From the NCBI RefSeq assembly GCF_003008515.1, contig NZ_CP027668.1:3327001-3391000 (forward strand): DNA of 64,000 nt. The letters are read 5' to 3'. This DNA is from Phreatobacter cathodiphilus. GTDB taxonomy: Bacteria > Pseudomonadota > Alphaproteobacteria > Rhizobiales > Phreatobacteraceae. Within the stretch, counting starts at the first letter, position 1, and each line of letters opens with the position of its first letter. A model generated the notes under the pieces. The model made no database searches. It saw only the letters and a program-made list of their open reading frames with translations, and was not told the DNA's origin. This document shows, piece by piece, positions 15,293 through 37,852 of this stretch. Position numbers and translations under genes: made by a program.

Positions 15293-16561
15293 ATGCGAAA
15301 AGCAGTTCTCGCCGTCGTATCGGCCTTTGCCTTCATGCTGCCCGGCGCCGCCATGGCCCAGAGTGGCGGCACCATCAGGATCGGCATTCTCGTCGCGCTC
15401 GAGGGCGCCTTCGCCGCCGGCGGCGCCGACGGCGTGCGCAATGTCGAACTCGCGCTCCGGCAGGTGAACAACACCATCGCCGGCCGCCGCATCGAGACCG
15501 TGGTGGCGCCCACCGACACCCGTCCGGACACCACCGTCCGCATGGCCCGCAAGCTCATCGAGCAGGACAAGGTCGACATCATCATCGGCCCGCTGTCCGG
15601 CTCCGAAGGCATCGCCATGCGCGACTTCGCCAAGACCATTCCCGGCAACGTCGTGATCAACGGCATTTCCGGCGCGCTGGAGACCACCTGGGTCGATCCC
15701 GCCCCGAACTTCTACCGCTTCAACCTCGACGGCGCGCAGTGGGGCTACGGCCTCGGCAGCTATGTGGTGAAGCAGAAGAACTGGCGCCGCGTCGTCACCA
15801 TCGCCGCGGACTATTCCTTCGGCTACACCAATTTCATGGGCTTCGCCGTCGACTACTGCAAGGCGGGCGGCGACATCGTCCAGCGCTTCTGGCAGCCCCT
15901 CGGCCAGTCGGACTTCGGCGCCATCATCGCGCAGCTCCCCGACAACATCGACGCCATCTATCTCGGGCTCGGCGGCACCGACGCCATCAACTTCCTCAAC
16001 CAGTACCAGCAGGCCGGCGAGCGTACGCGCCTCATCGGCGGCACCATCATGGCCGACCAGACGGTGCTGACCGCGCGCGGCCGCGCCAAGGAGGTGCTCA
16101 CGGGCACGCCGACCTCGGGGCCCTTCGCCATCGACAACCCCGATCCGGCCTGGCAGTCCTATGTGAAGCTCTACCAGGACGCCTTCCCGGCCAACCAGCG
16201 CTTCCCGACGCCCTCGCTCTTCGGCCTCGGCTACTACGTCGCGACCCTCGCGGCCATCCGCGGTCTCGAGGCGGTGGGCGGCGACCTGGGCAACGGTCAG
16301 GCGCGGTTCAAGGAAGCCCTGAACAAGCTGCAGCTCGACAGCCCGATCGGCCGCATCACCCTCAACGAGAACCGCCAGGCCACCGGCACCGTGTTCATCA
16401 CCGAGGTGGTCGAGGGCTCCGACGGCAACCTGACCAGCAAGATGGTCGGGCGCGCCGACAACGTCACCCAGACCCTCGGCATGACCGCCGAGCAGTTCCG
16501 GGCCCTCGGGCTGCCGTCCCGCACCGTGGTCGACTGCGCCAGGCTGCGCGCCGGCGGCTGA
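15293..16561 (+). CDS. ABC transporter substrate-binding protein, branched-chain amino acid type
   Basis: A 422-residue periplasmic binding protein. A clear signal peptide (MRKAVLAVVSAFAF..AMAQ) is followed by a Peripla_BP_6/LivJ-like fold beginning TIRIGILVALEG. It delivers a solute to the LivHMGF-type importer encoded at 18831-22430. The Liv family carries amino acids, amides, urea and many aromatic acids, so the ligand cannot be read from sequence. The ATG at 15293 has GGAGG at ideal spacing. A strong hairpin just after its stop may stabilise its message relative to the downstream genes. Confidence 0.9.
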   Translation: MRKAVLAVVSAFAFMLPGAAMAQSGGTIRIGILVALEGAFAAGGADGVRNVELALRQVNNTIAGRRIETVVAPTDTRPDTTVRMARKLIEQDKVDIIIGPLSGSEGIAMRDFAKTIPGNVVINGISGALETTWVDPAPNFYRFNLDGAQWGYGLGSYVVKQKNWRRVVTIAADYSFGYTNFMGFAVDYCKAGGDIVQRFWQPLGQSDFGAIIAQLPDNIDAIYLGLGGTDAINFLNQYQQAGERTRLIGGTIMADQTVLTARGRAKEVLTGTPTSGPFAIDNPDPAWQSYVKLYQDAFPANQRFPTPSLFGLGYYVATLAAIRGLEAVGGDLGNGQARFKEALNKLQLDSPIGRITLNENRQATGTVFITEVVEGSDGNLTSKMVGRADNVTQTLGMTAEQFRALGLPSRTVVDCARLRAGG

Positions 16562-16576
16562 CCCCTCGCGACCGTC

Positions 16577-16608
16577 CGGGGGCGGCCGGCCCGTGCCGTC
16601 CGCCCCCG
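16577..16608 (+). other. Hairpin between binding-protein gene and next gene
   Basis: A perfect 9-bp stem (CGGGGGCGG at 16577-16585, CCGCCCCCG at 16600-16608) with a 14-base loop, starting 15 bases after the stop. No T-run follows, so it is more likely an mRNA stabiliser or partial terminator than a full terminator. Such elements often raise the amount of periplasmic binding protein over the transporter subunits. Confidence 0.5.
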
Positions 16609-16665
16609 CCGCCCGCTGTGCGGAAAGTCCCGGGGCCTCGGCCCTGGGGTGACGAGGCGGCCCGC

Positions 16666-17721
16666 ATGACGTTGATCGGCTATCTCACGCGAACCCAGTT
16701 CGCCGATGGCGCCATCGACGACGCCCTGCCCGAGGAAGCTTCTCGCCTGGGCAAGGCGCTGGCGCTCATCGACACCGAACCTGCCGCGGCCCAGACCCTG
16801 GCCCGCGTCGCGGATGCCCTGCCGCGCGTCCGCCTCGCCACCTGTTCCGTCGGCGGCGGAGCGCCGTTGCGGGGCGAGGTGGCGCGCGTCGCCGCGGCGC
16901 TCCAGCGGGCCGAGGCCTCCACCATCATCGCCGTCGGCGGCGCCGCCGCCATCGGTCAGGCGCGGCTGGTCGCCGAGGCCTCCGTCCGCCGCGGGGCGCC
17001 CTGCGCCGTCATCGCCGTGCCGGCGAACCTGTTCGACCTCGGCCTCGGCCGCCAGGTGCGCCCCCGCGACGGCGAGCCGATCCCCTGCCCGCGCCCGGAC
17101 CGGGTGATCGCCGATCCGACCGCCCTCGCCCAGGTGCCGCCACGGAGGCTGGCGGCAGCCGGCATGGAGATCCTCGTCCACGCCATCGAGGCCTATGCCA
17201 GCCCGACCTACAATCCGCCCGCCGACGGCCTCGCCCTGGAGGCCGTGCGGCTCCTCGCGCGGTGGCTGCCGGTCGCCGTCGCCGCCCCCGGCAATGCCGA
17301 AGCCCGGCGCGAGGCCCTGGCCGGGGCCCTCACCGCCGGCCTCGCCATGGAGAAGGGCACCGGCGGCGTCGACGCCCTCGCCCATCCGCTCGAGGACGAC
17401 CTCGCCGACGCCGCCCTCCCCGGCGAACTCCACGCGCCGGTCCTCGCCGCCTTCGTCGCCTTCAACGCCCGCGCCGTCGGCGCCCGCTACGGCGCCCTGT
17501 CCGACACGATGGGCCAGGGCCGCGGGGCGGCCGGGCTCGAGGTCCAGCTCGCCGCCTTCGCGCGGGTGCTCGGCCTGCCCGCGGCGCTGCGCGAGACGGC
17601 GACCGACCCCGCCCGCTTCGCCGCCGTCGCCGAACGGGCGGCCGACGATCCCGCATCCCTCGCCAATCCGCGCCTGCTCACCCGCGGCGACTGCGAACGC
17701 ATCCTGGAGGCCGCATGGTGA
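16666..17721 (+). CDS. Iron-containing alcohol dehydrogenase family, maleylacetate-reductase-like
   Basis: A 351-residue protein with the two-domain Fe-ADH fold: nucleotide-binding half with VGGAAAIGQAR in place of the usual GGGS motif, and a helical half with GMEILVHAIEAYAS, DALAHPLED and GELHAPVL. Fe-ADHs use Asp-His-His-His to bind iron; here the first ligand position is Glu. Maleylacetate reductases have Asn there and need no metal, so this is a divergent relative. Those enzymes finish aromatic ring degradation. It lies between a binding protein and an AraC regulator. Exact reaction unknown; the substituted motif leaves some doubt that it is a dehydrogenase at all. Confidence 0.75.
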   Translation: MTLIGYLTRTQFADGAIDDALPEEASRLGKALALIDTEPAAAQTLARVADALPRVRLATCSVGGGAPLRGEVARVAAALQRAEASTIIAVGGAAAIGQARLVAEASVRRGAPCAVIAVPANLFDLGLGRQVRPRDGEPIPCPRPDRVIADPTALAQVPPRRLAAAGMEILVHAIEAYASPTYNPPADGLALEAVRLLARWLPVAVAAPGNAEARREALAGALTAGLAMEKGTGGVDALAHPLEDDLADAALPGELHAPVLAAFVAFNARAVGARYGALSDTMGQGRGAAGLEVQLAAFARVLGLPAALRETATDPARFAAVAERAADDPASLANPRLLTRGDCERILEAAW

Positions 17722-17872
17722 TCCCCGCACCCGCAAGCCCTGTCCGCCCGCGCGGCCCGGCGCGCCGACGCGGCGAATCGCCCGTTGCCTGCGCCGTCGC
17801 CTGCGATAAGCTCGTCAAGAAGAGACCGACACGAAAACAAGAAAAGACGCCCGTTCATCAGGGAGGAGCGTT

Positions 17873-18712
17873 GTGAGTGTTGCTCACGCTGTCGCGCACG
17901 GCGTGTTTGGTCGCGTCTGCCTCTACGTGATGGACAAGGCCATGGCGCCCCATGCGCATCGGGAAGGCCATCTCATCTTCCACATTCTCGGCCCCCCGGC
18001 CGAAGTGGTGGTGGAGGGCCGGCCCTATCCCCTGTCGCCCGGCCAGGCGGTCGCGATCAGCCCCTGGCAGCCGCACTACTACCGGCCGCTCGACCATCGC
18101 GACAACGTGCTGGTCCTCGTCCTCTACATCCGCCCGGGCTGGTTCGTGCAGGCGAGCCGCCAGGCCTCGGAAATCCTCCGCTTCGGACGCGTCGGGGTCG
18201 AGGTCACCGATCGCCTCGCCCGGCTGGTCACCGATACCGGGCACCTCCTCTCCGCCCATGGCGGCACCGACGGAGGTTTCGAGGACCGCCTGAGCGCCCT
18301 GACCCAGGCCTCGTTCGACCAGACCTGGCAATGGACCGCGGAAGGCCAGCACTTCATCGGCCAGGAGCGCCCGCTGCGCGACTTCCGCATCCGCCGCGCC
18401 CTGCGTCTGCTCGACGAGACGCTGGGCGAGCCCATCGACCTCGCGCGGCTGTCGCGCGCCGCAGGCCTGTCGCGGCCGCATTTCTTCAAGCTCTTCCGCG
18501 AACAGCTCGGCCTGCCGCCGACCATCTATCTCAACGCGCTCAGGATGGAGCGCGCCATCGAGCGGCTGGCGCTGGGCAAGGAAACGGTGGCCGATATCGG
18601 CCTCGACCTCGGCTTCTCGACGCCGGCGAGCTTCTCGCGCTTCTTCATCGCCAACGGGGTCGTCCCGCCCAGCACCTATCGCCGCAGCGTCATGGCCCAC
18701 GCCACCCAGTGA
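17873..18712 (+). CDS. AraC-family transcriptional regulator
   Basis: A 279-residue activator with an N-terminal cupin-like sensor (histidines in APHAHREGH and PWQPHYY) and a C-terminal AraC domain with two helix-turn-helix motifs (LARLSRAAGLSRPHFFKLF and VADIGLDLGFSTPASFSRFF). It begins with GTG preceded by GGGAGGAG. It sits inside the locus, after the dehydrogenase-like gene and just before the permease genes, on the same strand. This suggests it is the local regulator, activating transport and catabolic genes in response to the substrate. Confidence 0.88.
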   Translation: MSVAHAVAHGVFGRVCLYVMDKAMAPHAHREGHLIFHILGPPAEVVVEGRPYPLSPGQAVAISPWQPHYYRPLDHRDNVLVLVLYIRPGWFVQASRQASEILRFGRVGVEVTDRLARLVTDTGHLLSAHGGTDGGFEDRLSALTQASFDQTWQWTAEGQHFIGQERPLRDFRIRRALRLLDETLGEPIDLARLSRAAGLSRPHFFKLFREQLGLPPTIYLNALRMERAIERLALGKETVADIGLDLGFSTPASFSRFFIANGVVPPSTYRRSVMAHATQ

Positions 18713-18830
18713 GGGGGCGGCGCGGGCCGCGAAAGAAAAGACCCTCGGTAAAGCCGGCCTCGCGCGGTCGGCATAGCCTTCCCCTGACGGGCGGGGACGA
18801 GACCGCGGAATTCGGGTGTCGACGGGTGTG

Positions 18831-19847
18831 ATGGAAAAATTCGCCAAGAACCATCCTGTCTGGGCTCTGGTGATCGCGATCGTGGTGGTGGCCTTCCTCT
18901 GGCTCGTCGTCGCGCCATGGCCGGCCGAGCTCGAGGCGGCGATCGGGCGCAAGCGCGTGTTCCTCAACGCGCTGCTCGGCGGCATCACCCTCGGCGCCCT
19001 CTATTTCCTCGTCGCCTCCGGCTTCACGCTGATCTTCGGGCTGATGCGCACGGTCAATCTCGCCCACGGTTCGCTGTTCCTGCTCGGCGGCTATCTCGGC
19101 TACGAAATCGCCACCTGGTCCGGATCCTGGCTGCTCGCCTTTCCCATCGTCTTCGTCGTGGTCGGCCTCGTCGGCCTCGCCATGCAGCGCTTCATCTTCG
19201 CCCATATGGAGGGAGAGGAGTTGCGCCAGACCCTGGTGAGCATCGGCCTGTCGGTGGTGCTGGCCGACCTGATGCTCTGGTACTGGGGCGGCCAGTCCTA
19301 CACCACCCTGGCCCCCGCCTTCCTGCGCGGCCCGGTGGAACTGCCCCTCATCTCCTCCATCAATCCAACCAGCGGCGAGGCCATCTTCATCCGCTATCCC
19401 TCGGTGCGCGTCTGGATCCTGGTGGCGGCCATCGTCATCGGCATCGCCATGTGGCTGGTGCTCAACCGCACCTCGCTCGGCATGCTGATCCGCGCCGGCG
19501 TCGACGACCGCGAGATGCTGGCCGCGTCGGGCGTGCGCATCCAGCTCGTCTTCCTCGCCGTCTTCGTCTTCGGCGCAGGCCTCGCCGGCATGGCCGGCAT
19601 CGTCGGCGGCACGTTCCAGTCGCTGTCGCCGGGCGAGGACACCCGCTTTCTCCTCGCCAGTCTCGTCGTCGTCATCGTCGGCGGCATGGGCTCCATCGTC
19701 GGCGCCGCCATCGGGGCGGCGGTGATCGGCGTCACCGAGCAGATGGGGCTTGTCTACGCGCCGACCTATTCGGTGGTCTTCACCTTCCTCATCATGGCGG
19801 CGGTGCTCGCCTTCCGGCCGCAGGGCCTTCTCGGCGCGGGGCGGTGA
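18831..19847 (+). CDS. Branched-chain amino acid-type ABC transporter permease (LivH-like)
   Basis: A 338-residue integral membrane protein with about eight hydrophobic segments. The LivH signature is visible (LGGITLGALYFLVASGFTLIF and VNLAHGSLFLLGGYLG). It forms half of the membrane channel together with the LivM-like protein that follows three bases later. The first start codon is unsure: GTG at 18816 and ATG at 18831 are both in frame and neither has a strong ribosome site. Confidence 0.9.
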   Translation: MEKFAKNHPVWALVIAIVVVAFLWLVVAPWPAELEAAIGRKRVFLNALLGGITLGALYFLVASGFTLIFGLMRTVNLAHGSLFLLGGYLGYEIATWSGSWLLAFPIVFVVVGLVGLAMQRFIFAHMEGEELRQTLVSIGLSVVLADLMLWYWGGQSYTTLAPAFLRGPVELPLISSINPTSGEAIFIRYPSVRVWILVAAIVIGIAMWLVLNRTSLGMLIRAGVDDREMLAASGVRIQLVFLAVFVFGAGLAGMAGIVGGTFQSLSPGEDTRFLLASLVVVIVGGMGSIVGAAIGAAVIGVTEQMGLVYAPTYSVVFTFLIMAAVLAFRPQGLLGAGR

Positions 19848-19850
19848 GCG

Positions 19851-20924
19851 ATGGCGCTGGCTGACCAGGCCCCCCTCGGGGCGCGCATGACCACCGCCGC
19901 GGCGCCGGGCCGGTCCTGGATCGAGCGCATCCCCGCGGGTTGGTGGATCACCGCCTTCATCCTCCTCGCCCTGCCGCTGGTCGCCAACAATTTCTGGCTC
20001 TTCCAGGTGATGGGCTGGAGCTTCATCCTCGGCATGATCGCCGTGAGCCTCACCTTCCTCGCCGGCTATGGCGGCATGGTGAGCCTGTTGCAGATGAGCA
20101 TTGCCGGTCTCGCCGGCTACATGGTGGCCATCCTCGGCCCCTCGGGCACCACCTCCATCAGCCTCGGCCTCGCCTGGTGGATCGTGCTGCCCGCCGCCTT
20201 CCTCGTCGCGGCGATCGCCGCCACCCTCTTCGGCGCCCTGGCGGTCCGCACGGAGGGCATCTACACGATCATGATCACGCTCGCGATCGCCGCCGCCTTC
20301 TTCTACTTCACCCGCCAGAACTACACGATCTTCAACGGCTATTCCGGCTTCAACCTCGTCCTGCCGCCGCGGCTCTTCGGGGTGAACTGGCGCGATCCCG
20401 TGCCGTTCTACTACCTGTGCCTCGGCTGTGCGACGCTGTGCTACGGCGCCGTCGTCTACATCTCCCGCTCGCCCTTCGGCCTCGCCCTCCAGGGCGTGCG
20501 CGACAACCCGCGCCGCATGGCCGCCCTCGGCTTCAACGTCACCGCCCACCGCGTCGCCGCCCATGCGCTCGCCAGCGTCTTCGCCTCCACCGGCGGCATC
20601 CTGCTGGTCTGGCAGAACGCCCAGATCGCACCTGGCACCATCGGCATCCCGGCCGCCATCGACGTCCTCGTCGTCGCCGTCATCGGCGGCATGCGCCGGC
20701 CGCTCGGCGCCTTCGTCGGCGCCTTCATCTATGTCATCCTGCAGGTCTTCTCGCCCGACGTGCTCGGCGCCTTCGGTTTCTCCGCCGAGCGCTTCAAGCT
20801 GATCATCGGCATCGGCTTCCTCGCGGTCGTCCTGTTCTCTCCCGACGGCGTGCTCGGCCTCTGGGACCGCTGGCGCGCCCGCACCGCCCGCCGCGTCGAT
20901 CCCCTGACGGGGGTGCCGCGATGA
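19851..20924 (+). CDS. Branched-chain amino acid-type ABC transporter permease (LivM-like)
   Basis: A 357-residue membrane protein, the second channel half. It has about nine hydrophobic segments and the LivM features: SLTFLAGYGGMVSLLQM near the N-terminal third, SPFGLALQGVRDNPRRMAALG in the cytoplasmic coupling region, and DVLVVAVIGGMRRPLGAF. The start is three bases after the LivH stop, and its own stop overlaps the LivG start by ATGA, so the importer genes are translated as a block. Confidence 0.9.
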   Translation: MALADQAPLGARMTTAAAPGRSWIERIPAGWWITAFILLALPLVANNFWLFQVMGWSFILGMIAVSLTFLAGYGGMVSLLQMSIAGLAGYMVAILGPSGTTSISLGLAWWIVLPAAFLVAAIAATLFGALAVRTEGIYTIMITLAIAAAFFYFTRQNYTIFNGYSGFNLVLPPRLFGVNWRDPVPFYYLCLGCATLCYGAVVYISRSPFGLALQGVRDNPRRMAALGFNVTAHRVAAHALASVFASTGGILLVWQNAQIAPGTIGIPAAIDVLVVAVIGGMRRPLGAFVGAFIYVILQVFSPDVLGAFGFSAERFKLIIGIGFLAVVLFSPDGVLGLWDRWRARTARRVDPLTGVPR

Positions 20925-21709
20925 CCCTCGCCGAAGCCGCCGACCGCCCGGTACAGATGAACACCGGCAATGCCCTGGAGCTGCGCGGCATCACCAAGAT
21001 GTTCGGGGCGCTCGCCGCCATCGCCGACGTGACCCTGTCGGTGCGCCCCGGCGAGCGGCGGGCCGTGCTCGGCTCCAACGGCGCCGGCAAGACGACGCTG
21101 TTCAACTGCATTACCGGCGATTTCCCCGCGACCTCCGGCATCATCCGCTTCTTCGGCGAGGACGTCACCGCCTTCCCCCCCTACGAGCGGATCCGCCGGG
21201 GGCTTCGCCGCACCTACCAGATCTCCTCCCTCTTCGCCGGCCTGACGGTCATCGACAACGTCTACCTCGCCTGCCGCGGCGTCTCGCGGAACCGCTATTC
21301 GCTGCTGCGCCCGCGCGCCGACGACGCCCTCGTCCATGCCGCGGAGACGCTGGTGGAGGCGGTGCATCTCACCGCCGTGCGCGACCGCCTCGTGGGCGAA
21401 CTCGCCTATGGCCAGCAGCGCCAGCTCGAGATCGCCCTGGCCATGTCGGGTGCGCCGCGCTTCATCCTGTTCGACGAGCCGGCGGCCGGCCTGTCGCCCA
21501 CCGAGCGCCGCGACCTCGTCGCCATCCTCACCTCGCTCCCCGCCCATATCGGCTACATCATCATCGAACACGACATGGACGTGGCGCTGCGCGTCGTCGA
21601 GAGCGTGACGATGATGCACAACGGCCGCATCTTCAAGGAAGGCCGGCCCAGCGAGATCGAGGACGACCCGGAGGTCCAGGAACTCTACCTGGGGGGCGGC
21701 CATGGCTGA
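20921..21709 (+). CDS. ABC transporter ATP-binding protein (LivG-like)
   Basis: A 262-residue ATPase of the importer. Walker A (GSNGAGKTT), a signature in the LivG form ([12 protein letters not shown]), Walker B ([11 protein letters not shown]) and the switch histidine (IIEHDM) are all present, so it should hydrolyse ATP. It overlaps LivM upstream and the LivF fusion downstream by a few bases. Confidence 0.92.
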
Positions 21710-23933
21710 GCGCTTCCCCGTGCCGCCCAAGACGGGCGCCCCGGTCCTGCAATTGCAGGGCGTCAACGTCTTCTACGGCCGCAGCCACGCCGTGCAGGGC
21801 GTCGACCTGACGCTGCAGTCCGGCGTGCTGTCGGTGGTCGGCCGCAACGGCATGGGCAAGACGACCATGTGCAAGGCGATCATGGGCCTCGTGCCGATCG
21901 CCTCCGGCTCGATCCGCTTCATGGGCGAGGAGATCGCCGGCCGCGCCCCGGCCGACGTCGCCCGGCTCGGCATCGGCTACGTCCCCCAGGGACGCCGCCT
22001 CTGGCGCTCGCTCACCGTCCACGAGCACCTCAGGCTCATGGCGCGGTCCAAGGGGCGGTGGACGCCGGAGCGCATCTACGAGGTCTTCCCGCGTCTCGCC
22101 GAGCGGCGCAACAATGGCGGCGCCCAGCTCTCCGGCGGCGAGCAGCAGATGCTGGCGATCAGCCGCGCCCTGCTGATGAACCCGCGCCTCCTCATCATGG
22201 ACGAGCCGACCGAAGGGCTGGCGCCGGTCATCGTCGCCCATGTCGAGGAGACGCTGGTGCGCCTGGCGGCGGAGGGCGACGTTTCGATCCTCGTCATCGA
22301 GCAGAACATCGGCGTCGCCACCCAGATGTCGGACCCGGTGGCGATCATGGTCAACGGCCGCATCAACCGGGTCATCGCCTCGGCGACGCTGGCCGCCGAC
22401 CGCGACCTCCAGCAGCGCCTGCTCGGCGTCGGCCGCCACGGCCACGAGGACCCCGCCTTCACCGAAGACGCCCCGTCCGGATCCGCCGCCGCGCCGGCGC
22501 CCGTTCCGGAGGGGCCGATCCGCGTCTATGTGGCCAATCCCGCCATCCCCACGCGCTGGTCGAAGGACGTGCCGGCCGCCCAGATCGAGGCCGCCGCGCG
22601 CACCGTCTCCAGGCCCACCCTGGCGACGATCGACGGCCGGCGCATCGGCGACACCTCGGCCCTCGCGGCCCGCGGCCCCGGCGAGCCCCATGTCGTCATC
22701 GCCGGGACGCTCGACACCAAGGGCGAGGAACTCCGCTACATCCGCGACATCATCCAGGCGGCGGGCCTGCGCACGCGCCTCGTCGACGTCTCGACCCAGG
22801 GCCGCAACCACGGCGCCGACGTCTCGCCGCAGGAGGTGGCGCTCGCCTCGCCCCGCGGCCTGCCGGGCCTCGCCTCCGGCGACCGCGGCGCCGCCGTCGC
22901 CGCCATGACCGACGCCTTCGCCGCCTGGATCGGAGCCCAACAGGGCGTCGCCGGCCTGATCTCGGCCGGCGGCTCCGGTGGCACCGCCATCGCCACCGCG
23001 GCCATGCAGGTCCTGCCGGTCGGGGTCCCCAAGCTCATGGTCTCCACCATGGCGGCCGGCAATGTCGCTGAGTATGTCGGCTCGGCCGACATCACCATGA
23101 TGCACTCGGTCACCGACGTTCAGGGCCTGAACCGCATTTCGCGCGCGGTGCTCGGCAATGCCGCCCATGCCATGGCGGCCATGGCCAAGGCGCATCTGGC
23201 GACCGCGCATCTTGCGGCCGCGCGGCCGGCTACCGCCCAGGAGCGGCCCCTCGTCGGCCTCACCATGTTCGGCGTCACCACCCCCTGCGTCCAGCAGGTG
23301 GCGCGGCTCCTCGACCCCGAATGGGAGGCGCTGGTGTTCCACGCCACCGGGGTGGGCGGGCGCTCCATGGAGAAGCTCGTCGATTCCCGCCTGCTCCAGG
23401 GCGTCATCGACGTCTCGACGACGGAAGTCTGCGACATGCTGCTGGGCGGCATCCTGCCGGCGAGCGAGGACCGGTTCGGCGCCGTGATCCGGACGAAGCT
23501 GCCCTATGTCGGCTCGGTCGGCGCCCTCGACATGGTCAATTTCGCAGCGCCCGACACGGTCCCCGCGCACTATCGCGGCCGCAACCTCTACCCGCACAAC
23601 CCGCAGGTCACGCTGATGCGGACCACGCCCGAGGAGAACGCCCGCATCGGCCGCTGGATCGGCGAGCGCCTCAACCTGATGGAGGGGCCGGTGCGGTTTC
23701 TCATTCCGGAAGGCGGCGTCTCCGCCCTCGACGCGCCGGGCAAGCCCTTCTTCGATCCCGATGCCGACGCGGCGCTCTTCGAGGCGCTGGCCGCCACCAT
23801 CCGCCCCACCGCGAACCGGCAGCTCCTCCGCCTGCCCCATCACATCAACGATCCCGCCTTCGCCCAGGCGCTGGTGCGCGAATTCCTCGCGCTGCACCAG
23901 GGCCGCCGCGGCGCCGCGCGCAGGAGGCCCTGA
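21702..23933 (+). CDS. Fusion of LivF-like ABC ATPase with Tm-1-like UPF0261 domain
   Basis: A 743-residue protein, three times the usual LivF length. Residues 1-245 are a complete LivF ATPase: Walker [10 protein letters not shown], signature LSGGEQQML, Walker [12 protein letters not shown], switch His replaced by Gln (VIEQNIG), as is normal for LivF. After a 25-residue linker, residues 270-735 form a UPF0261 domain ([42 protein letters not shown]). UPF0261 is the ATP-binding N-terminal half of the plant virus-resistance protein Tm-1. The C-terminal half of Tm-1 is a TIM barrel, and the next gene encodes just that. Whether the fusion links transport with a metabolic step is an inference. Confidence 0.88.
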
Positions 23934-23934
23934 C

Positions 23935-24765: not shown

Positions 24766-24819
24766 GCCGGCACAGCAGACAGACGACGCGGACAGAAGAA
24801 ACGTCGGGAGGACCATACC

Positions 24820-29166: not shown

Positions 29167-29176
29167 GGAGGCTGAC

Positions 29177-29659
29177 ATGGCCAAGATCCCCGTCCAGTTC
29201 CGCCTGAACGGCTCCGAGCGCGCCGCCTTCGTCGGCCCCGCCGACAATCTCCTCACCCTGCTGCGCCGGGGGCTCAACGACTTCGGCCCCAAATACGGCT
29301 GCGGCCAGGGCACCTGCGGCACCTGTACGGTGCTGGTCGACGGCGAGCTGCAGCTCTCCTGTCTGACGCTCGCCGCGACCTGCGAGGGCCGCCACGTGGA
29401 GACGGTCTCCGGCATGGCGGACGGGCCGGTGCTGCACCCGCTGCAACAGGCCTTCATGGACCATTTCGCCGCCCAGTGCGGCTTCTGCACGCCGGGCATG
29501 CTCACCGCGGCACGGGCGCTCCTCGCCGAGAACCCGAACCCGACGCGCGAGGAGGTGATCGACGGCATCTCCGGCAACATCTGCCGCTGCACCGGCTACG
29601 AATCCATCATCGAGGCCATCCTGGCCGCCGCCCGCTCCGGGCAGGCCAGGCGCGCCTGA
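29177..29659 (+). CDS. Molybdenum hydroxylase 2Fe-2S subunit (CoxS-like)
   Basis: The 160-residue small subunit. The N-terminal plant-type ferredoxin has its cysteines in YGCGQGTCGTCTV and LQLSC; the C-terminal [2Fe-2S]-binding domain has QCGFCTPGM and ICRCTGYE. All eight cluster ligands are present. It relays electrons from the Mo site to the FAD subunit. A good ribosome site (GAGGAGG) precedes the ATG. Length is normal for the family. Confidence 0.93.
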   Translation: MAKIPVQFRLNGSERAAFVGPADNLLTLLRRGLNDFGPKYGCGQGTCGTCTVLVDGELQLSCLTLAATCEGRHVETVSGMADGPVLHPLQQAFMDHFAAQCGFCTPGMLTAARALLAENPNPTREEVIDGISGNICRCTGYESIIEAILAAARSGQARRA

Positions 29660-29669
29660 GGAGGGCACC

Positions 29670-31421: not shown

Positions 31422-31422
31422 C

Positions 31423-32454
31423 ATGGCCCGCCACCGGGGACGCGGCATGGCGTCCGTCAACTATCCCATCGGCATGAACCTCGGCGGCGACCCGAGCCAG
31501 GCGCTGATCCACTCCAATCCCGACGGCAAGTTCACCGTCGCCCTCTCCGCCATCGACCTCGGTCAGGGGATGAAGCAGGTGACCCGCCAGGTGGCCGCCG
31601 AGACGCTCGGCGTGCCCATGGAGGACGTCTATGTCGACACCGCCGACAGCGACACCGGGCCCCACGACATGGGCAGCTTCGCCTCGCGCGGCACCCACCG
31701 CATGGGTAATGCCGTCATCGCCGCCGCCCGCGAGGCGCGCGGCGTCCTCCTGGAGGCGGCGGCCGAGGAGCTCGAGGTCAATGCCGGCGACCTCGTCACC
31801 GACGGGCGCGGCAACATCCACGTGAAGGGAGCGCCCTCCCGCTCCATCACCGTCAAGGCCACCGCCCAGGCGGCGCAGTTCAAGCAGGGCAAGACCATCG
31901 CCGGACGCGGAATTTTCCTGATCCCGCTGTCGACCGTCGATCCGCAGACCGGAGAGATGAACCCCAACACCGCCTTCGCCCATGCCAGCCTCGTCGCCGA
32001 CGTGGAAGTGGACGACGAGACCGGCGAGGTCACCGTCCTGAAAATGGCCTCGGCCTATGAGCTGGGACGGGCGATCAACCCGAAGATGGTCGAGCAGCAG
32101 CTCGTCGGCGGCGCCTGGATGGGCATCAGCCACGCCCTCTACGAGACGCCGGAGCCCTACTATCCCGATCCCAGCCACGGGCCGCGCGACTTCAACGAAT
32201 ATCTCATGCCGGGTCCCGGCGACATCGCGCCCTATTCCGTGACCATCCTCGAACGGCCGGCGCCGGACGGCCCCTTCGGCGGCAAGGGCCCCGGCGAGAT
32301 GTGCGCCAATCCGGTGCTGCCGGCCATCGCCAACGCCGTCTACAACGCCGTCGGCGTGCGCGTGAACGACCTGCCGATCACGCCGGAGAAGATTCTGCGC
32401 GGCATCAAGGCCAATGGCGGCGCACGGCCGCAGCCACGCCGCGGCGGGGGCTGA
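31423..32454 (+). CDS. Molybdenum hydroxylase large subunit, C-terminal half
   Basis: 343 residues with the second molybdopterin-binding domain: LGQGMKQVTRQVAAETLG, the SFASRGTHRMGN loop, and GGKGPGEM near the end, where the Glu is the predicted catalytic base of the xanthine-oxidase family. It starts one base after the previous stop with its own ATG and RBS-like GGAGG. The MASVNYPIGMNLGG junction restarts the fold without repeating it, so the two proteins together make one large subunit. This could be a stable natural split, since both halves keep clean frames and good starts. Confidence 0.85.
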   Translation: MARHRGRGMASVNYPIGMNLGGDPSQALIHSNPDGKFTVALSAIDLGQGMKQVTRQVAAETLGVPMEDVYVDTADSDTGPHDMGSFASRGTHRMGNAVIAAAREARGVLLEAAAEELEVNAGDLVTDGRGNIHVKGAPSRSITVKATAQAAQFKQGKTIAGRGIFLIPLSTVDPQTGEMNPNTAFAHASLVADVEVDDETGEVTVLKMASAYELGRAINPKMVEQQLVGGAWMGISHALYETPEPYYPDPSHGPRDFNEYLMPGPGDIAPYSVTILERPAPDGPFGGKGPGEMCANPVLPAIANAVYNAVGVRVNDLPITPEKILRGIKANGGARPQPRRGGG

Positions 32455-32458
32455 CGCC

Positions 32459-33343
32459 ATGGCGCTGCAACCGCCCATCGCCGGCCTGTCGAGCCCGGAG
32501 GCGCTGGCCGAGGCGCTGCGCTCGGCGCTCTACCTCGCCGACGACGGCATCGCCACGGCGGCCTTCCTCGCCCTCGCCCTCGGTAAGCCGCTGCTGCTTG
32601 AGGGCGCACCGGGCGTCGGCAAGACCGAGGCGGCCAAGGCCCTCGCCGGCATCCTCGGGCGGCAGCTCATCCGCCTGCAATGCTTCGAGGGGATCGATGC
32701 CTCCGCCGCCCTCTACGAGTGGAACTATCCGCGCCAGATGCTCGCCATCCGCCAGGCCCGCGAGGGCGAGAGCGTCGACATCTACCGCGATGACTTCCTC
32801 ATCGAGCGGCCGATGCTCGCCGCCCTGCGCCGCCCCGACTCCACCGTGCTGCTGATCGACGAGATCGATCGCTCGGACCACGAGTTCGAGGCCTTCCTGC
32901 TGGAGTTTCTCTCCGACTTCTCGATCTCCATTCCCGAGCGCGGCACGCTCAGGGCTGCCGACCGGCCGGTCGTCGTCCTCACCTCCAACCGCACCCGCGA
33001 CCTGCACGAGGCGCTGCGGCGACGCTGCGTCTATCACTACATTCCCTATCCCGAGCCGGCGCGGGAGGCGGCCATCATCATGCTGCGCGCCTCGGCCGTG
33101 GCCGAGGGAACGGCCCGCGCCGTGGTCCACGCCGTCGGCCTGCTCAGGCAGGAGCCGCTGACCAAGCCGCCGGGCGTCGCCGAGGCCGTCGACTGGGCGG
33201 AGGCGGCAACCGCCCTCGCCCGCACCGGCGCGCCCTGGCCGGAGGCGTTCCGCCGTTCCATCGGCACGGCGCTGAAGGACGAGGAGGACCTCGCCCTGAT
33301 GCGCCCGCGCATGGACGCCTTCATCCGGGCGGTGGCGGCATGA
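32459..33343 (+). CDS. MoxR-type AAA+ ATPase (CoxD-like)
   Basis: A 294-residue AAA+ ATPase with Walker A GAPGVGKTEAA, Walker B VLLIDEIDRS and a sensor-1 region (VVVLTSNRTRD). CoxD-type MoxR proteins help insert or complete the metal centre of Mo hydroxylases and work together with a VWA protein, which is encoded next with a 4-base overlap. I chose the ATG at 32459, since the upstream in-frame ATG (32414) lies inside the previous gene. Confidence 0.9.
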   Translation: MALQPPIAGLSSPEALAEALRSALYLADDGIATAAFLALALGKPLLLEGAPGVGKTEAAKALAGILGRQLIRLQCFEGIDASAALYEWNYPRQMLAIRQAREGESVDIYRDDFLIERPMLAALRRPDSTVLLIDEIDRSDHEFEAFLLEFLSDFSISIPERGTLRAADRPVVVLTSNRTRDLHEALRRRCVYHYIPYPEPAREAAIIMLRASAVAEGTARAVVHAVGLLRQEPLTKPPGVAEAVDWAEAATALARTGAPWPEAFRRSIGTALKDEEDLALMRPRMDAFIRAVAA

Positions 33344-34470
33344 CGACCCCGCCCGCCCTTCCAAGGCTCCCCGCCGCGACACGGCCCCTCGTCGCCTTCG
33401 CCGGCCTGCTGCGCGCAAACGGCTTCGCCGTGGCGCCGGAGCAGACCGTCGCCTTCCTCGCCGCCGTCGACCTGCTCGGTCCCCGCTCCATTGATCACGT
33501 GCGCCGCGCGGCCGCAGCCACCCTCGCCCCGCCTCTCGAACGACGGGAGACCTTCGACGCTCTCTTCGACGCCCATTTCCTCGGCGCGGCGGGTGAACCC
33601 GGCGAGGACGAGGAGTTCCAGCCGGACGACGAGATAAAGGTCGAAGAGGAGGGTGCCCATCAGGAGATCCTGATCGGCGAGGAGATCCACGAGACCGGCC
33701 GCGAGGCGACGGCGGCGGAGGCCCTGGCCGTGCGCCGCCTCACCCCGCCCGACGAGGGCGAGACGCTCCGCCGCTTCGCCCGCGACCTGCCAGACGCCCT
33801 GCCACGCCGCCGCGGCTATCGCCGCCGCAGCGCCCGGCGCGGACCCGGCTTCGACCTCGCGGCGAGCCTCAAGGCCGCCATCCGCAACGACGGCGAGGTC
33901 ATGGCGCTGAAGCGCTGGCGGCGGAACACGCGGGTCCGGCCGGTCCTGCTGCTCATCGACGTCTCCGGCTCGATGAAGCAACGCACCGACGCCAATCTCG
34001 CCTTCGCCCATGCGCTGGTGCACGGGACGCCGCGCGTGGAGGTCTTCACCTTCGGCACGCGGCTGACGCGGCTCACCACCGTGCTGAAGCGCCGCAACCG
34101 CGCCCGGGCGCTCGCTCTCGCCGCCGATCTCGTCGCCGACTGGGACGGCGGCACCCGCATCGGCGACGCGCTGCAGGCCTTCCTCGCCGTGCCGCGCTTT
34201 GCCGGCTATGCCCGCGGCGCCGTGGTCCTCGTCCTCTCCGACGGGCTGGAGCGCGGCGACCCCCGCGCCATGATCCAGGCGGTGGGGCGGCTGGCCGCCC
34301 GCGCCCATCGCATCGACTGGCTCTCGCCGCTCGCCGCGGATGGCGCCTATCGCCCGGAAACCGAGGGCCTCGCCGCCATCCGGCCGCTTCTCGCCTCGCT
34401 GACGAACGGCGGCTCCACCGCCGCCGTCTGCCGCCACGTCCTGTCACTCGGCCGGGAGCGCGCCGCATGA
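33340..34470 (+). CDS. VWA domain protein (CoxE-like)
   Basis: A 376-residue protein with a C-terminal von Willebrand A domain carrying an intact metal-binding MIDAS motif (DVSGSM) and a later threonine in WDGGTRIGDAL. The middle is acidic then strongly arginine-rich. CoxE proteins partner with CoxD ATPases to mature the enzyme. It overlaps the ATPase gene upstream and the amidohydrolase downstream by four bases each, so translation is coupled. Confidence 0.9.
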   Translation: MTTPPALPRLPAATRPLVAFAGLLRANGFAVAPEQTVAFLAAVDLLGPRSIDHVRRAAAATLAPPLERRETFDALFDAHFLGAAGEPGEDEEFQPDDEIKVEEEGAHQEILIGEEIHETGREATAAEALAVRRLTPPDEGETLRRFARDLPDALPRRRGYRRRSARRGPGFDLAASLKAAIRNDGEVMALKRWRRNTRVRPVLLLIDVSGSMKQRTDANLAFAHALVHGTPRVEVFTFGTRLTRLTTVLKRRNRARALALAADLVADWDGGTRIGDALQAFLAVPRFAGYARGAVVLVLSDGLERGDPRAMIQAVGRLAARAHRIDWLSPLAADGAYRPETEGLAAIRPLLASLTNGGSTAAVCRHVLSLGRERAA

Positions 34471-35336
34471 TCGACGCCCATTTCCACATCTGGCGGCAGG
34501 CGGACCTGCCCTGGCTCACCGGCCCCATGCAGCCGCGCATCTTCGGCCCCTACGAGCCGATCCGACGCGACTATCCGATCGCTGAATACGTGGCCGACGC
34601 GACCTCGGCCGGCATGACCGGCGCCGTCTATGTCCAGGCCAACTGGCCGGTCGACCGCTATGTCGATGAGGCGGCCTTCGTGGCCGAGGCGTCGGACCAA
34701 AGCGGCTTTCCCATCGCCATCGTTGCCTATGCCGACATGCTGGCGGGGGATGCGCGACCGCAGCTCGACGCCCTCGCCGCCAACGCCCGCGTCCGCGGCG
34801 TGCGCATGCAGCTCCACTGGCACGAGAACCCGCTCTACCGTTTCGCCGCCGGGCCGGACCTCGCCCGCGATCCCCTGCTCCAGAGCAACGTCGCACGGCT
34901 CGCCGACTACGGCTGGAGCTTCGATCTCCAGGTCTTCCCGGGCCAGATGGCGGGAGCGGCCGAACTCGCCGACGCCTGTCCCGCCGTGACCTTCGTGCTG
35001 CAGCATGCCGGGATGCTGGAGGACCTGACCCCGGAGGGCATCGCAGCCTGGCGCGCCGGCATGGCGCGGCTCGCCGAGCGGCCAAACGTCGTCAGCAAGC
35101 TCTCCGGCCTCGGCACCTTCCTGCGCCGCAACGATGCCGCCCACGTCGCCATGGTCGCCCGGGAGACGCTGGCGCTGTTCGGGGCCAACCGCTGCCTCTT
35201 CGGCTCGAACTTCCCGATCGAAAAGCTCTGGACGAGCTACGCCGACCTCTTCGCCGCCCATCGGGCCGCCGTTCCCCAGGGGGACCGCGCCGCCGTCTTT
35301 TCTGCAACCGCCAAGCGGGTCTACCGGCTGGCCTGA
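34467..35336 (+). CDS. Amidohydrolase/lactonase family protein (COG3618-like TIM barrel)
   Basis: A 289-residue metal-dependent hydrolase. The family starts with HxH (IDAHFHIW), has QLHWHEN on a central strand, QHAG later, KLSGLG, and ends with LFGSNFPIEK. Relatives include 2-pyrone-4,6-dicarboxylate and sugar lactonases. It is the first of three consecutive enzymes of lactonase type, so a lactone or cyclic ester is a likely intermediate of this pathway. Start overlaps the VWA gene. Confidence 0.82.
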   Translation: MIDAHFHIWRQADLPWLTGPMQPRIFGPYEPIRRDYPIAEYVADATSAGMTGAVYVQANWPVDRYVDEAAFVAEASDQSGFPIAIVAYADMLAGDARPQLDALAANARVRGVRMQLHWHENPLYRFAAGPDLARDPLLQSNVARLADYGWSFDLQVFPGQMAGAAELADACPAVTFVLQHAGMLEDLTPEGIAAWRAGMARLAERPNVVSKLSGLGTFLRRNDAAHVAMVARETLALFGANRCLFGSNFPIEKLWTSYADLFAAHRAAVPQGDRAAVFSATAKRVYRLA

Positions 35337-35353
35337 CACATTCGGAGGGAACG

Positions 35354-36202
35354 ATGCCACTCGAGATCAAGGTCCTCGACTACGGCGACATCGAACTGGA
35401 ATCGAGCTTCCTGGTGCTCGGCCGCGGCTGCGGCCAGCGCAAGCGCACCTATACCTACGGCTTCCTGATCCTCGGCGGCCCCTGGCCGGTCGTCGTCGAT
35501 ACCGGCTACCGGCACAACCAGATCATGGAGAGCCTGGGCATGCGCGGGCTCCAGTTCCACGAGAACATGATCGAGAACCAGCTGATGAAATACGGCGTGC
35601 GCATGGGCGACGTCCGCTATGTCGCGCACACCCATCTGCACATCGATCATGCCGGCAAGGACGAACTCTTCCCGATGAACACCACGGTGATCGTCAACCG
35701 CCGCGAACTCGAATACTCCGTCTCCGGCCTGATGCACCCGCAATATCCGGCGCCCGACATCAAGCACCTGATCGACCGGCTGCACACGAAACACGCGCTG
35801 CGCCTCGAGGATCTGGAACTCACCGGCATGATCGAGCTCTTCCCCGGCTGCTATCTCGAGGCTGCCGGCGCCCATACCGAGGGTTCGATGAACGTGCATG
35901 TGGACACGGTCGAGGGCCGGGCGACGATCTGCGGCGACGTCATCTACGACTTCAACGACCAGATCATCAATCCGTACCACGAGATCCACGCCGACGAGCC
36001 CCGCGTCACCGGCAACCACGGCACCACCAAGCGCCAGGAGAAGGCGGCGATCAAAAAGCTGCTGAACTCCTCCCGCTTCCTCCTGCCGGTGCACGACAAA
36101 CCAGCCAAGGTCGAGGCCGGTCAGGTCGTGGCGCGCCTCGACATGGCCGTGCCGGGGCCGGTGACCCAGTCCCTGCCGGCGCGGTCCTGGTTCCCCGCCT
36201 GA
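35354..36202 (+). CDS. Metallo-beta-lactamase-fold hydrolase, N-acyl-homoserine-lactonase-like
   Basis: A 282-residue zinc hydrolase. The HTHLHIDHAG motif supplies four or five metal ligands; further ligands are H in AAGAHTEGS and D in CGDVIYD. The family includes quorum-quenching lactonases, but here the operon context argues for a catabolic lactone or ester. A CGGAGGGAACG ribosome site precedes the start. The long internal loop (residues 70-110) is typical of lactonases rather than true beta-lactamases. Confidence 0.85.
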   Translation: MPLEIKVLDYGDIELESSFLVLGRGCGQRKRTYTYGFLILGGPWPVVVDTGYRHNQIMESLGMRGLQFHENMIENQLMKYGVRMGDVRYVAHTHLHIDHAGKDELFPMNTTVIVNRRELEYSVSGLMHPQYPAPDIKHLIDRLHTKHALRLEDLELTGMIELFPGCYLEAAGAHTEGSMNVHVDTVEGRATICGDVIYDFNDQIINPYHEIHADEPRVTGNHGTTKRQEKAAIKKLLNSSRFLLPVHDKPAKVEAGQVVARLDMAVPGPVTQSLPARSWFPA

Positions 36203-36244
36203 GACGCCCCGCCCGTCGGAGTTCCCCCGCAAGCGAGATCGCCC

Positions 36245-37852
36245 ATGACCACCCATGTCGCCGTCACGCAGGCCTTCGAGACCCTCATCGACCCCTGGGC
36301 CCCGGTGCGCCAGCTCGGCACCGGATTCCAGTTCACCGAGGGGCCCATCTGGCATCCGAAGGAGGGGTTCCTGCTGTTCTCCGACATGCCCGGGGACGTG
36401 CGCCGGCGCTGGGACCGGACGGGCATCCGTGAGGTCATGCGCCCCGCCAACAAGTGCAACGGCATGACCTATGACGCGGACCTCAACCTGATCGTCTGCG
36501 AACATGCCACCTCGACGCTGGTGCGCGAACGTCCGGACGGACGGCGCGAGGTCCTCGCCTCCCATGTCGACGGCCGCGAGCTCAACAGCCCCAACGACGT
36601 CGTCGTGAAGTCCGACGGCGCCATCTATTTCTCCGACCCCTGGTACGGCCGCATGCCGGTCTACGGCGTCGAGCGCCCGCGCCAGCTCGGCTTCCAGGGC
36701 GTCTATCGCATCGCCCCCGGCGGCGGCCCGCCGCAGCTGCTCGTCGACCGATACCTGTTCGAGCAGCCGAACGGCCTCTGCTTCTCGCCCGACGAGAAGC
36801 GGCTCTACGTCAACGACACCGTCCAGCAGCTCATCCGCGTCTTCGACGTGCTGCCCAACGGCTCGCTCGGGGTCGGCCACGTCTTCGCCTCCGGCATCGC
36901 CTCCCCCTCCGAGCCCGGCGTGCCCGACGGCATGAAATGCGACGCGAGGGGCAATGTCTGGGTCTGCGGGCCCGGCGGCGTCTGGGTCTATGCGCCCGGC
37001 GGCGAGCTCATCGGCAAGGTCAGGGTGCCCGAGCTCGTCGGCAACCTGACCTGGGGAGGACCCGATTTCCGCACGCTGTTCCTCACCGCCACCCATTCGC
37101 TCTATGCCGTCGAGACCAGGGTCGGCCCGCGCGCCGAGCCCTACATGATCGCAGCCGGAGGCGGCCGACGATCGGGCACCGCGGCGAAGCCGGGCGGGCA
37201 GGCCGCTGCATCGGTCGCCCGCAACGGCGCGCTGAAATGCGCCCCCGGCTACGTCCTCGACCCCGGCCGTTGCGCCGTCATCGTCCAGGACATGCAGAAC
37301 GACGTGGTGATGGAGGGCGGGGCCTTCGCCGCCTCCGGCTCGCCCGCCCATTGCCGCGAGCAGAACGCCGTCGCCAATGCCGCCCGCCTCGCCGCCGCGG
37401 CGCGGGCCAAGGGCGTGCCGATCATCCACGTCTGGTTCATCGTCGAGGCGGGCTGCCCGGGCGTGACCATGAACGCGCCGCTCTTCGAGGGCCTCGCCGA
37501 CGCCAAGGCCATGGTGCGCGGCACCTGGGGCGCGGCGCCTGTGCCGGGACTGGAGGCGGTGGCCGGCGACCACGTGGTCGAGAAGCAGCGCATGAGCGCC
37601 TGGGAAGGCTCGCGGCTCGAAACCGTCCTCAAGGCGCTCGGCCGCGACATCGTCGTCGTCACCGGCGCCTGGACCAACATGTCCATCGAGCACACGGCCC
37701 GCACCGGCGCCGACAAGGGCTATTACATGATGGTGCCGGAGGACTGCTGTTCGACCATGAACGCCGAATGGCACACCGCCTCGGTCAACTACGCCCTGCA
37801 GAACGTCGCCGTGGTGACCGACGCCGACGCCCTCATCGCCGCCTGGCAATGA
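36245..37852 (+). CDS. Fusion of SMP-30/gluconolactonase with a Ser-variant isochorismatase-like domain
   Basis: 535 residues. The first 300 form an SMP-30-type six-bladed lactonase with metal ligands in FTEGPIWHP, LNSPNDVVV and VPDGMKCD. From about 335 an isochorismatase-like cysteine hydrolase follows: Asp in VQDMQND, Lys in EKQRMSAW, but the nucleophile position in VTGAWTNMSIEHTAR is Ser where most members have Cys. So it either uses another mechanism or binds without cutting amides. Fusion of a lactonase with this fold suggests two consecutive steps. It is the last gene of the block, 42 bases after the previous one. Confidence 0.85.
   Translation: MTTHVAVTQAFETLIDPWAPVRQLGTGFQFTEGPIWHPKEGFLLFSDMPGDVRRRWDRTGIREVMRPANKCNGMTYDADLNLIVCEHATSTLVRERPDGRREVLASHVDGRELNSPNDVVVKSDGAIYFSDPWYGRMPVYGVERPRQLGFQGVYRIAPGGGPPQLLVDRYLFEQPNGLCFSPDEKRLYVNDTVQQLIRVFDVLPNGSLGVGHVFASGIASPSEPGVPDGMKCDARGNVWVCGPGGVWVYAPGGELIGKVRVPELVGNLTWGGPDFRTLFLTATHSLYAVETRVGPRAEPYMIAAGGGRRSGTAAKPGGQAAASVARNGALKCAPGYVLDPGRCAVIVQDMQNDVVMEGGAFAASGSPAHCREQNAVANAARLAAAARAKGVPIIHVWFIVEAGCPGVTMNAPLFEGLADAKAMVRGTWGAAPVPGLEAVAGDHVVEKQRMSAWEGSRLETVLKALGRDIVVVTGAWTNMSIEHTARTGADKGYYMMVPEDCCSTMNAEWHTASVNYALQNVAVVTDADALIAAWQ

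Follow-up and report, generated by a model that had tools for sequence, protein, structure and literature searches.

We analysed a locus of twenty genes, all on the + strand, at positions 15293-37852 of a 64,000-nucleotide stretch of the Phreatobacter cathodiphilus genome (contig NZ_CP027668.1, positions 3,327,001 to 3,391,000; hereafter the window), which belongs to a single contig of 4.49 Mb. The set is one conserved, transferable unit. Its left half, consisting of an importer, a LivF::Tm-1 fusion, a TIM barrel, a flotillin and twin SRPBCC proteins, is an exchangeable platform, a point that goes beyond the earlier note on this DNA. With even confidence, we propose that the locus is a flotillin-scaffolded catabolic cassette of platform and payload, in which a molybdenum (Mo) hydroxylase docks by a tail and lactonases open its product. 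The platform would be a Liv-type importer with LivF::Tm-1, its TIM-barrel partner, a long-stalked flotillin and two SRPBCC ligand carriers; the payload would be a split Mo hydroxylase of the xanthine dehydrogenase (XDH) family with a CoxD/CoxE-like maturation pair and ring-opening hydrolases. The importer would take up a small cyclic, probably fairly hydrophobic compound, and the SRPBCC pair would take over this compound, or a quinone, at the membrane. The compound would then be oxidised by the Mo hydroxylase, which the short, conserved tail end would hold close to the flotillin assembly by binding the flotillin or its SRPBCC partners. An Amidohydro_2 or a metallo-beta-lactamase-fold (MBL) hydrolase, followed by the SMP-30 and isochorismatase-like domains of the last gene, would open and process the product, which is probably a lactone or a similar ring.

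Species genomes were scanned with the N-terminal half of the Mo subunit (MoN) as the query, and the best 80 of at least 582 loci were kept, which makes no census. Among these 80 loci, the nearest named relatives of the Mo subunit were from Hyphomicrobiales. The gene order was retained, between differing flanks, in genomes of Hyphomicrobiales, Rhodobacterales and other Alphaproteobacteria, some copies being plasmid-borne. We set up classes of loci, types A to D, from a tblastn matrix and from readings of frames and contexts. Type A contains the importer, LivF::Tm-1, the TIM barrel, the flotillin, two SRPBCC genes, the flavin adenine dinucleotide (FAD) and iron-sulphur (FeS) subunits, MoN, the C-terminal half of the Mo subunit (MoC), MoxR, VWA, Amidohydro_2 and/or MBL, and the SMP-30::isochorismatase fusion. 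Its hosts are a Beijerinckiaceae metagenome-assembled genome (MAG), Pseudolabrys, Bradyrhizobium, Shinella, Rhodobacterales, a Roseomonas MAG (cut within MoN) and a Methylocystis MAG. A Yoonia plasmid has a nearly identical list and order with the addition of an aldehyde dehydrogenase, two short-chain dehydrogenases and a fumarylacetoacetate-hydrolase-family (FAH) gene, and on a Shinella plasmid the unit is present without the MBL gene. Type B is platform-free and contains FAD, FeS, MoN and MoC and, where the contig permits, also MoxR, VWA and Amidohydro_2. It occurs in actinobacteria too; in Mesorhizobium, other Rhizobiaceae and Phyllobacteriaceae it is accompanied by an AraC gene and one SRPBCC gene, and an EthD protein gene stands at the type B loci L045 and L051. 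In this neighbourhood survey, the test that the earlier note had proposed, the whole set recurred in the same order, and the refutation foreseen in the earlier note, that the parts do not co-occur, failed. The sequence beyond LivK and beyond SMP-30 varied among the genomes read, and therefore the true borders are close to 15293 and 37852, as the earlier note had drawn them. The Mo module and the platform each occur alone, as they might if importer, flotillin and Mo enzyme were merely adjacent; however, the order is kept over families and plasmids despite changed flanks, and the survey already contradicts chance, which leaves this explanation scarcely conceivable.

On a haloarchaeal plasmid (L013, 13652-18758), an SRPBCC gene and a gene for a cyclase-family hydrolase accompany the split Mo genes. 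In Pseudaminobacter soli, the type B locus has next to it, on the opposite strand, a further, distant Mo hydroxylase and an Fe-S subunit (L041, 2701-5425). In Sinorhizobium sp. BG8 (L011, 18001-20384), the MoN frame stops after 377 residues and the homology continues in another frame, so that this copy looks broken or misread.

The link between the Mo enzyme and the flotillin was followed across 397 evenly sampled genomes of the order, in which MoC was searched at E <= 1e-140. It was present in 58 genomes (own included) of 24 of the 141 genera, and in five of the 11 other genomes listed for the own genus. MoC reached at least 78% identity in 45 genomes (own excluded), and a flotillin gene lay at most 9 kb upstream on the same strand in 38 of them, one of these flotillins (G127) being cut by a contig end. 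The seven misses were draft assemblies of 120-550 contigs; five had a flotillin frame of 889-1023 residues on another contig, one had frames of 601 and 525 residues, and one had none. None of the 12 genomes with MoC below 78% identity had a flotillin at that place. Some flotillin gene was found in 19 of 20 genomes checked, type B included, and therefore only the placing beside the Mo genes is specific. In a quick tree of the MoN core plus MoC with 49 rows (25 type A and 24 type B; the partial type A loci L014, L020 and L049 omitted), the type A rows formed one clade on a long stem inside type B, with a Shimodaira-Hasegawa-like approximate likelihood-ratio test (SH-aLRT) support of 100. A flotillin tree that omits seven near-identical Bradyrhizobium flotillins also placed type A (19 rows) in one clade, apart from 14 further flotillins encoded at other places of type A and type B genomes.

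The platform was found without Mo genes, as the Mo genes were found without the platform. In five type B genomes, a flotillin sister to the type A ones is located away from the Mo genes, beside LivF::Tm-1 and two SRPBCC genes. The second SRPBCC of those five loci is fused, via a linker that is often Pro/Ala-rich, to a medium-chain dehydrogenase/reductase (MDR) enzyme nearest to NADPH:quinone reductase, below the cut-off, and Amidohydro_1, FAH-family and alpha/beta-hydrolase genes are near. A related SPFH half was detected in 40 of 385 genomes of a class sample (E <= 1e-55) and in 43 of 398 genomes of a phylum sample (E <= 1e-50). LivF::Tm-1 and the TIM barrel preceded the flotillin in all 18 short loci of the best SPFH matches. 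Wider contexts, 18 hand-picked from the best class and phylum matches (two class matches of at least 59%, G770:C20:113040 and G600:C100, are not among them), had LivF::Tm-1 and SRPBCC beside the flotillin in 17 cases; L184 has neither. The payload in those contexts was the Mo enzyme in five, a quinone-reductase-like enzyme (type C) in ten and an aldehyde dehydrogenase (type D, L180) in one, and one (L177) was cut by the contig end. Together with the five loci above, the quinone-reductase loci number 15, and the oxidoreductase is in one frame with the second SRPBCC in 14 of them, the frame of L172 being not called. L180 has, besides its aldehyde dehydrogenase, a 74% relative of MBL, a weakly matching Tm-1 half and an SRPBCC pair recognised by Pfam only. 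After one quinone-reductase locus (L171, 16187-18304), there is a second TIM-barrel gene (43% identity) and an unfused Tm-1 gene (38%).

In a wider flotillin tree, the Mo rows and the row of the aldehyde dehydrogenase locus fell together in one clade (98/93), with the quinone-reductase rows outside it. This tree omits the seven near-identical Bradyrhizobium flotillins and L030, and its outgroup is unclean, L127 standing inside on a long branch. The simplest history, which depends on this imperfect root, would be that the platform came first, the Mo module joined once and Mo was lost once. The SRPBCC fusion of type C would be a covalent tether in place of the tail.

The tail is a disordered extension of MoN. 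In the AlphaFold2 model, the core was mostly folded, whereas 87 of the 109 residues of 475-583 were in segments with a predicted local distance difference test (pLDDT) below 50; residues 1-38 were of low confidence too. The tails vary in length and letters and end in RFSSxxGxRRR or a shortened form (SGFRRR, SGSRRR, RFSSVFTRRR). This ending was found in 25 of 25 type A loci of the main set, in L014 and L020, and in all five type A loci added later, one of which, L182, comes from the same genome as L032, with an identical flotillin. It was not seen in 26 complete split MoN frames outside type A, some of them on short contigs that hide any platform; the broken frame of L011 is left out of these 26. 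When the 4,889 frames of the window and the type A loci were searched with a loose form of the pattern, one other frame, of 69 residues, matched; the 3,772 frames of the later loci gave three others (235, 74 and 141 residues), all of them lacking RFSS. Mean identity across 18 tails, picked from 30 to avoid near-copies, was 0.65 for the last nine residues and 0.48 for the linker (over the shorter sequence), the latter value being inflated by composition; the comparison suggests that the ending is more constrained than the linker, with a moderate contrast. Inspection by eye showed no relation between linker length and flotillin length. The conserved end looks like a putative docking tag. The earlier note had placed the Mo enzyme on a flotillin-organised membrane site, and this proposed link is strengthened because of the platform survey and because the tail is confined to the flotillin-linked forms. 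The charged MoN tail of L168 (14418-16481) has the same end motif. Some type C amidohydrolases (L138, L140, L142, L144 and L183) have Gly/Ser-rich N-terminal parts with GSSRF, slightly resembling the tail motif; these were not in the other type C loci printed and may be chance.

Several observations weigh against the proposed tie of tail and flotillin. A flotillin is present elsewhere in most of the type B genomes tested (five of six in one set; five of 12 in the census set). Because type A forms one clade, the joining of Mo enzyme and platform looks like an apparently single event, and the association of tail and flotillin would then reflect one origin and conservation, not repeated gain. The identity of the linker is not far under that of the ending, and the linker is Pro-rich in most loci and charged in L168. 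The motif is also absent from the type D aldehyde dehydrogenase and the type C enzymes. It may be asked, then, whether the tail serves maturation or subunit assembly through MoxR/VWA, with the flotillin being retained next to it for organising the membrane in general: the MoxR and VWA genes adjoin that of the tailed subunit, and a correlation of one origin could be hitch-hiking. Yet tailless relatives carry MoxR and VWA genes too, and the flotillin remains with the platform when the payload changes, and we regard this explanation as improbable.

The payload enzyme belongs to the XDH family, as Pfam found the FAD, [2Fe-2S], hammerhead, MoCoBD_1 and MoCoBD_2 domains. The Glu of GxKGxGE is a conserved active-site residue in this family; the motif is present in 25 of 25 type A MoC and aligns with 3hrd, 1rm6 and 8uem. 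The Mo subunit comes as two chains in type A and type B loci alike, as far as these were read, which rules out an assembly error as the origin of the split. The ACSFR Cys loop is part of the CuSMo site of aerobic CO dehydrogenase; the ACSFR region of 8uem aligned with the MRGFG region of the window, where there is no Cys, and that enzyme was ruled out. Matches to nicotinate, purine and 4-hydroxybenzoyl-CoA enzymes scored far under the NCBIfam cut-offs, and no substrate name is given.

The earlier note assumed that the Mo enzyme hydroxylates an aromatic or N-heterocyclic ring, followed by lactone opening. The nearest structures of both halves, nicotinate dehydrogenase and 4-hydroxybenzoyl-CoA reductase, and for MoN also quinoline 2-oxidoreductase, agreed with such a substrate. 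On the other hand, family kinship leaves the substrate unfixed, the best models of the FAD and Fe-S subunits are glyceraldehyde dehydrogenase (below cut-off), several type B loci adjoin sugar-type binding proteins (L035, L042 and L059), and no ring-cleaving oxygenase domain was matched in the unit by Pfam. We consider the aromatic model unlikely. An oxygen-ring or lactol substrate appears at least as likely as an aromatic or N-heterocyclic one, because platform-free relatives adjoin sugar-type ABC importers in several genomes and the hydrolases come nearest to named models for sugar or lactone enzymes, all below cut-off. A sugar-lactone pathway as such was not adopted and is kept as a lead, the sugar-type binding proteins of type B and a rhamnonate-type FAH-family hydrolase beside the Yoonia locus (412 bits against a cut-off of 500) being hints only. 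MR_MLE and AP_endonuc_2 enzymes are located beside the type B locus L064.

The earlier note also counted three lactonase-type hydrolases. Three hydrolase genes are indeed present, but this description was too simple, as Amidohydro_2 and MBL are each absent from some loci and the third hydrolase shares its frame with an isochorismatase-like domain. Among the 22 type A loci whose end could be seen, two lacked Amidohydro_2 (L016 and L022) and three lacked MBL (L009, L029 and L030; two of these three are Shinella zoogloeoides), and none lacked both. Because each is lost singly and never both, it is as if either were able to open the same product. The last gene is an SMP-30/gluconolactonase::isochorismatase-like fusion, and both the fusion and a Ser (TNMS), where the aligned 3kl2 has Cys, were found in all 22 loci where the gene could be seen. 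Isochorismatase-like cysteine hydrolases use a nucleophilic Cys, and with this Cys replaced by Ser, amide hydrolysis of the thiol type by the domain is doubtful.

The SRPBCC protein CoxG was proposed, according to PMC4240915 and PMC13240472, to bring CO dehydrogenase to the membrane, where its electrons would pass to quinone. By this precedent, the SRPBCC proteins of the locus could withdraw quinone from the membrane and relay electrons to the respiratory chain from the Mo enzyme's FAD subunit, with the flotillin doing no more than supplying a suitable membrane patch. The SRPBCC fold, which is that of CoxG, was recognised by Pfam, the AlphaFold2 model and a fold search; the Mo genes have SRPBCC neighbours in the visible type A loci and in 12 of the 24 type B loci of the Mo tree (several of the others are short contigs), and the type C SRPBCC is fused to a quinone-reductase-like enzyme. 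However, the fold search with the SRPBCC 1 model gave 7tmu, XoxI and similar SRPBCC proteins as the best matches, and CoxG was not named among the 50 matches listed. With 145 and 150 residues, nearly fully covered by the domain, the two proteins leave no room for a membrane segment as reported to be needed by CoxG. L180 keeps two SRPBCC genes though its payload is an aldehyde dehydrogenase, a family that normally uses NAD(P), and this one example leans towards substrate carriage. The electron route is thus a possibility that we take seriously, while judging it somewhat unlikely.

The flotillin of the locus has the SPFH/Band_7 and Flot domains by Pfam and is the sole PF15975 match in the genome. 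Its coil repeats with a period of 11 and 44 residues. The coil measured 491-785 residues in 26 loci and the differences were multiples of 11, with a constant shift in four Rhodobacterales: lengths modulo 11 fell in class 7 in 22 of the 26 and in class 4 in these four. The borders of the stalk are BLAST ends, and the remainders were calculated for 18 loci and read off the lengths for the remaining eight. Steps of 11 residues are as expected of an unbroken coiled coil. The stalk was mostly longer in Mo loci than in the quinone-reductase loci, where it had 212-369 residues in 14 of 15 and 493 in one. To our knowledge, the clients of bacterial flotillins are hard to pin down. In PMC5718613, bacterial flotillin is described as a scaffold for protein complexes. 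Human flotillins, according to PMC11260169, form a membrane-attached cage with a wall without holes, 32 nm wide, 19 nm at the narrow end and 22 nm high. A further and rather unlikely idea is that such flotillins form catabolic compartments, in which a stalked cage or vault would be fed by the importer and SRPBCC, oxidoreductases would be loaded by tethers (the RFSSxxGxRRR-type peptide or the SRPBCC fusion), and stalk steps of 11 would set the cage size to the payload.

Compared with known systems, the flotillin shares its SPFH and flotillin domains with FloT/FloA microdomains, while here the stalk has 491-785 residues and the gene is a dedicated one inside a catabolic unit. The human Flot1/2 cage is of the same domain family; here the protein is bacterial, with one subunit gene and a longer coil. 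Nicotinate dehydrogenase (3hrd, which we take to be NdhFSLM of Eubacterium barkeri) also has its Mo subunit in two chains with the same domain border and is the best PDB match of both halves, whereas the present locus adds the CoxD/E pair, the importer and hydrolases; we know of no tail, flotillin or SRPBCC partner for it. The cox operon of aerobic Mo-CO dehydrogenase (CoxMSLDEFG) has in common the FAD, Fe-S and Mo subunits, MoxR, VWA and a nearby SRPBCC gene; the locus differs in the absence of the Cys loop in the aligned region, in the split large subunit and in the added flotillin and importer, and no CoxF/XdhC-type domain was matched in the unit by Pfam. Tomato Tm-1 consists of a UPF0261 half and a TIM-barrel half. 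Pfam recognised both here (UPF0261 and a PEP_hydrolase-like TIM barrel), and the split Tm-1 module of the earlier note stands as two proteins, with the correction that the first half is fused to the importer ATPase LivF. This fusion was a single frame of 711-796 residues in 26 of 26 type A loci examined and is shared with type C. The TIM barrel gene was not found in locus L029 in the tblastn matrix. The attKLM/blcABC lactone operon of Agrobacterium holds a lactonase-fold hydrolase, an iron-containing alcohol dehydrogenase (Fe-ADH) and an aldehyde dehydrogenase together. The same enzymes meet in the present unit (the aldehyde dehydrogenase in Yoonia), although here Fe-ADH, MBL and aldehyde dehydrogenase are not in every locus of a larger unit.

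The features of the locus are listed in Table 1. All parts named in the earlier note were present at or near the coordinates it gave, with coding-type GC at third codon positions (GC3) and Pfam matches above the curated cut-offs, and Pfam agreed with the importer, giant flotillin, twin SRPBCC, split Mo hydroxylase and CoxDE-like pair in one direction. The packing is tight, as described before: the seventeen genes from LivH through the SMP-30 fusion are spaced by -8 to +54 bp, and wider gaps occur only after LivK, Fe-ADH and AraC (128, 151 and 103 bp, respectively). This spacing fits one transcript and is no proof of it. A promoter and terminator scan of the locus gave no signal exceeding shuffled sequence. 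Fe-ADH matched the NCBIfam 4-hydroxybutyrate dehydrogenase model with a score far under the cut-off; in the Bradyrhizobium flanks L099 and L101, no Fe-ADH gene separates LivK from AraC.

Table 1. Genes and tail features of the locus, in window positions
Feature	Position	Strand	Basis and remarks
LivK-type periplasmic binding protein, Peripla_BP_6	15293..16561	+	Pfam; also first gene of the unit in flanks of other genomes
Iron-containing alcohol dehydrogenase (Fe-ADH), optional in unit	16690..17721	+	Pfam
AraC-family regulator	17873..18712	+	Pfam; same place in other genomes
LivH permease, BPD_transp_2	18816..19847	+	Pfam
LivM permease, BPD_transp_2	19851..20924	+	Pfam
LivG ATPase (ABC)	20924..21709	+	Pfam
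LivF ATPase::UPF0261 (Tm-1 N-terminal half) fusion	21702..23933	+	Pfam
PEP_hydrolase-like TIM barrel (Tm-1 C-terminal half)	23935..24765	+	Pfam; structure relative 2p10
Giant flotillin, 872 residues: SPFH, coil of ~513 residues, Flot domain	24820..27438	+	Pfam
SRPBCC protein 1	27451..27888	+	Pfam; AlphaFold2 model, pLDDT 93.9, SRPBCC fold
SRPBCC protein 2; type C relative fused to quinone-reductase-like enzyme	27890..28342	+	Pfam
FAD subunit, CoxM-like	28345..29166	+	Pfam
[2Fe-2S] subunit, CoxS-like	29177..29659	+	Pfam
Mo subunit N half (MoN): hammerhead, MoCoBD_1, disordered tail	29670..31421	+	Pfam; AlphaFold2 model
MoN disordered tail, residues 475-583	31092..31418	+	AlphaFold2 pLDDT
Conserved MoN tail end RFSSVFGTRRR, last 11 codons	31386..31418	+	Kept across type A loci
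Mo subunit C half (MoC), MoCoBD_2, with GxKGxGE	31423..32454	+	Pfam
MoxR-type AAA ATPase, CoxD-like	32459..33343	+	Pfam
VWA_CoxE protein	33340..34470	+	Pfam
Amidohydro_2 hydrolase	34467..35336	+	Pfam; nearest NCBIfam model L-fuconolactonase, below cut-off
MBL-fold hydrolase, lactonase-like	35354..36202	+	Pfam, NCBIfam
SMP-30/gluconolactonase domain::isochorismatase-like domain, Cys to Ser	36245..37852	+	Pfam; alignment

The next gene starts 40 bp after the unit and was read as exonuclease III (xth) from its translation alone, with no family search; no xth relative was present in the downstream flanks of the other genomes read. A frame of 379 residues on the - strand (38734-39870) had no Pfam match at E 0.001. 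Directly upstream of the unit, a TonB-dependent receptor and a major facilitator superfamily (MFS) transporter are encoded on the same strand (10669-14612), without recurrence in the upstream flanks compared. The first 12 kb of the window have a GC content of ~60-63%, whereas the sequence between 12 and 48 kb has ~67-74%. A pair of genes of the phage integrase family, both on the - strand (4586-5743 and 8754-10199), suggest an integrated element within positions 1-12000.

A literature search found no flotillin linked with a molybdenum hydroxylase, a xanthine dehydrogenase operon, molybdopterin or SRPBCC, subscription papers being mostly outside its reach; within the same reach, no described pathway with this set was found, which agreed with the earlier note. 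The families themselves are known, and the platform with an exchangeable payload appears to be undescribed as a locus type as far as this search extends. Here, conserved gene order ties a flotillin to one importer, two carriers and one enzyme complex with a candidate docking peptide, and this makes flotillin scaffolding testable. If our proposal is true, payload swapping on a constant platform would be a modular design absent from the literature searched, and the uncharacterised families UPF0261 and PEP_hydrolase-like TIM barrel would gain a functional context. The locus would then represent a previously unknown manner in which bacteria assemble a catabolic station on the membrane.

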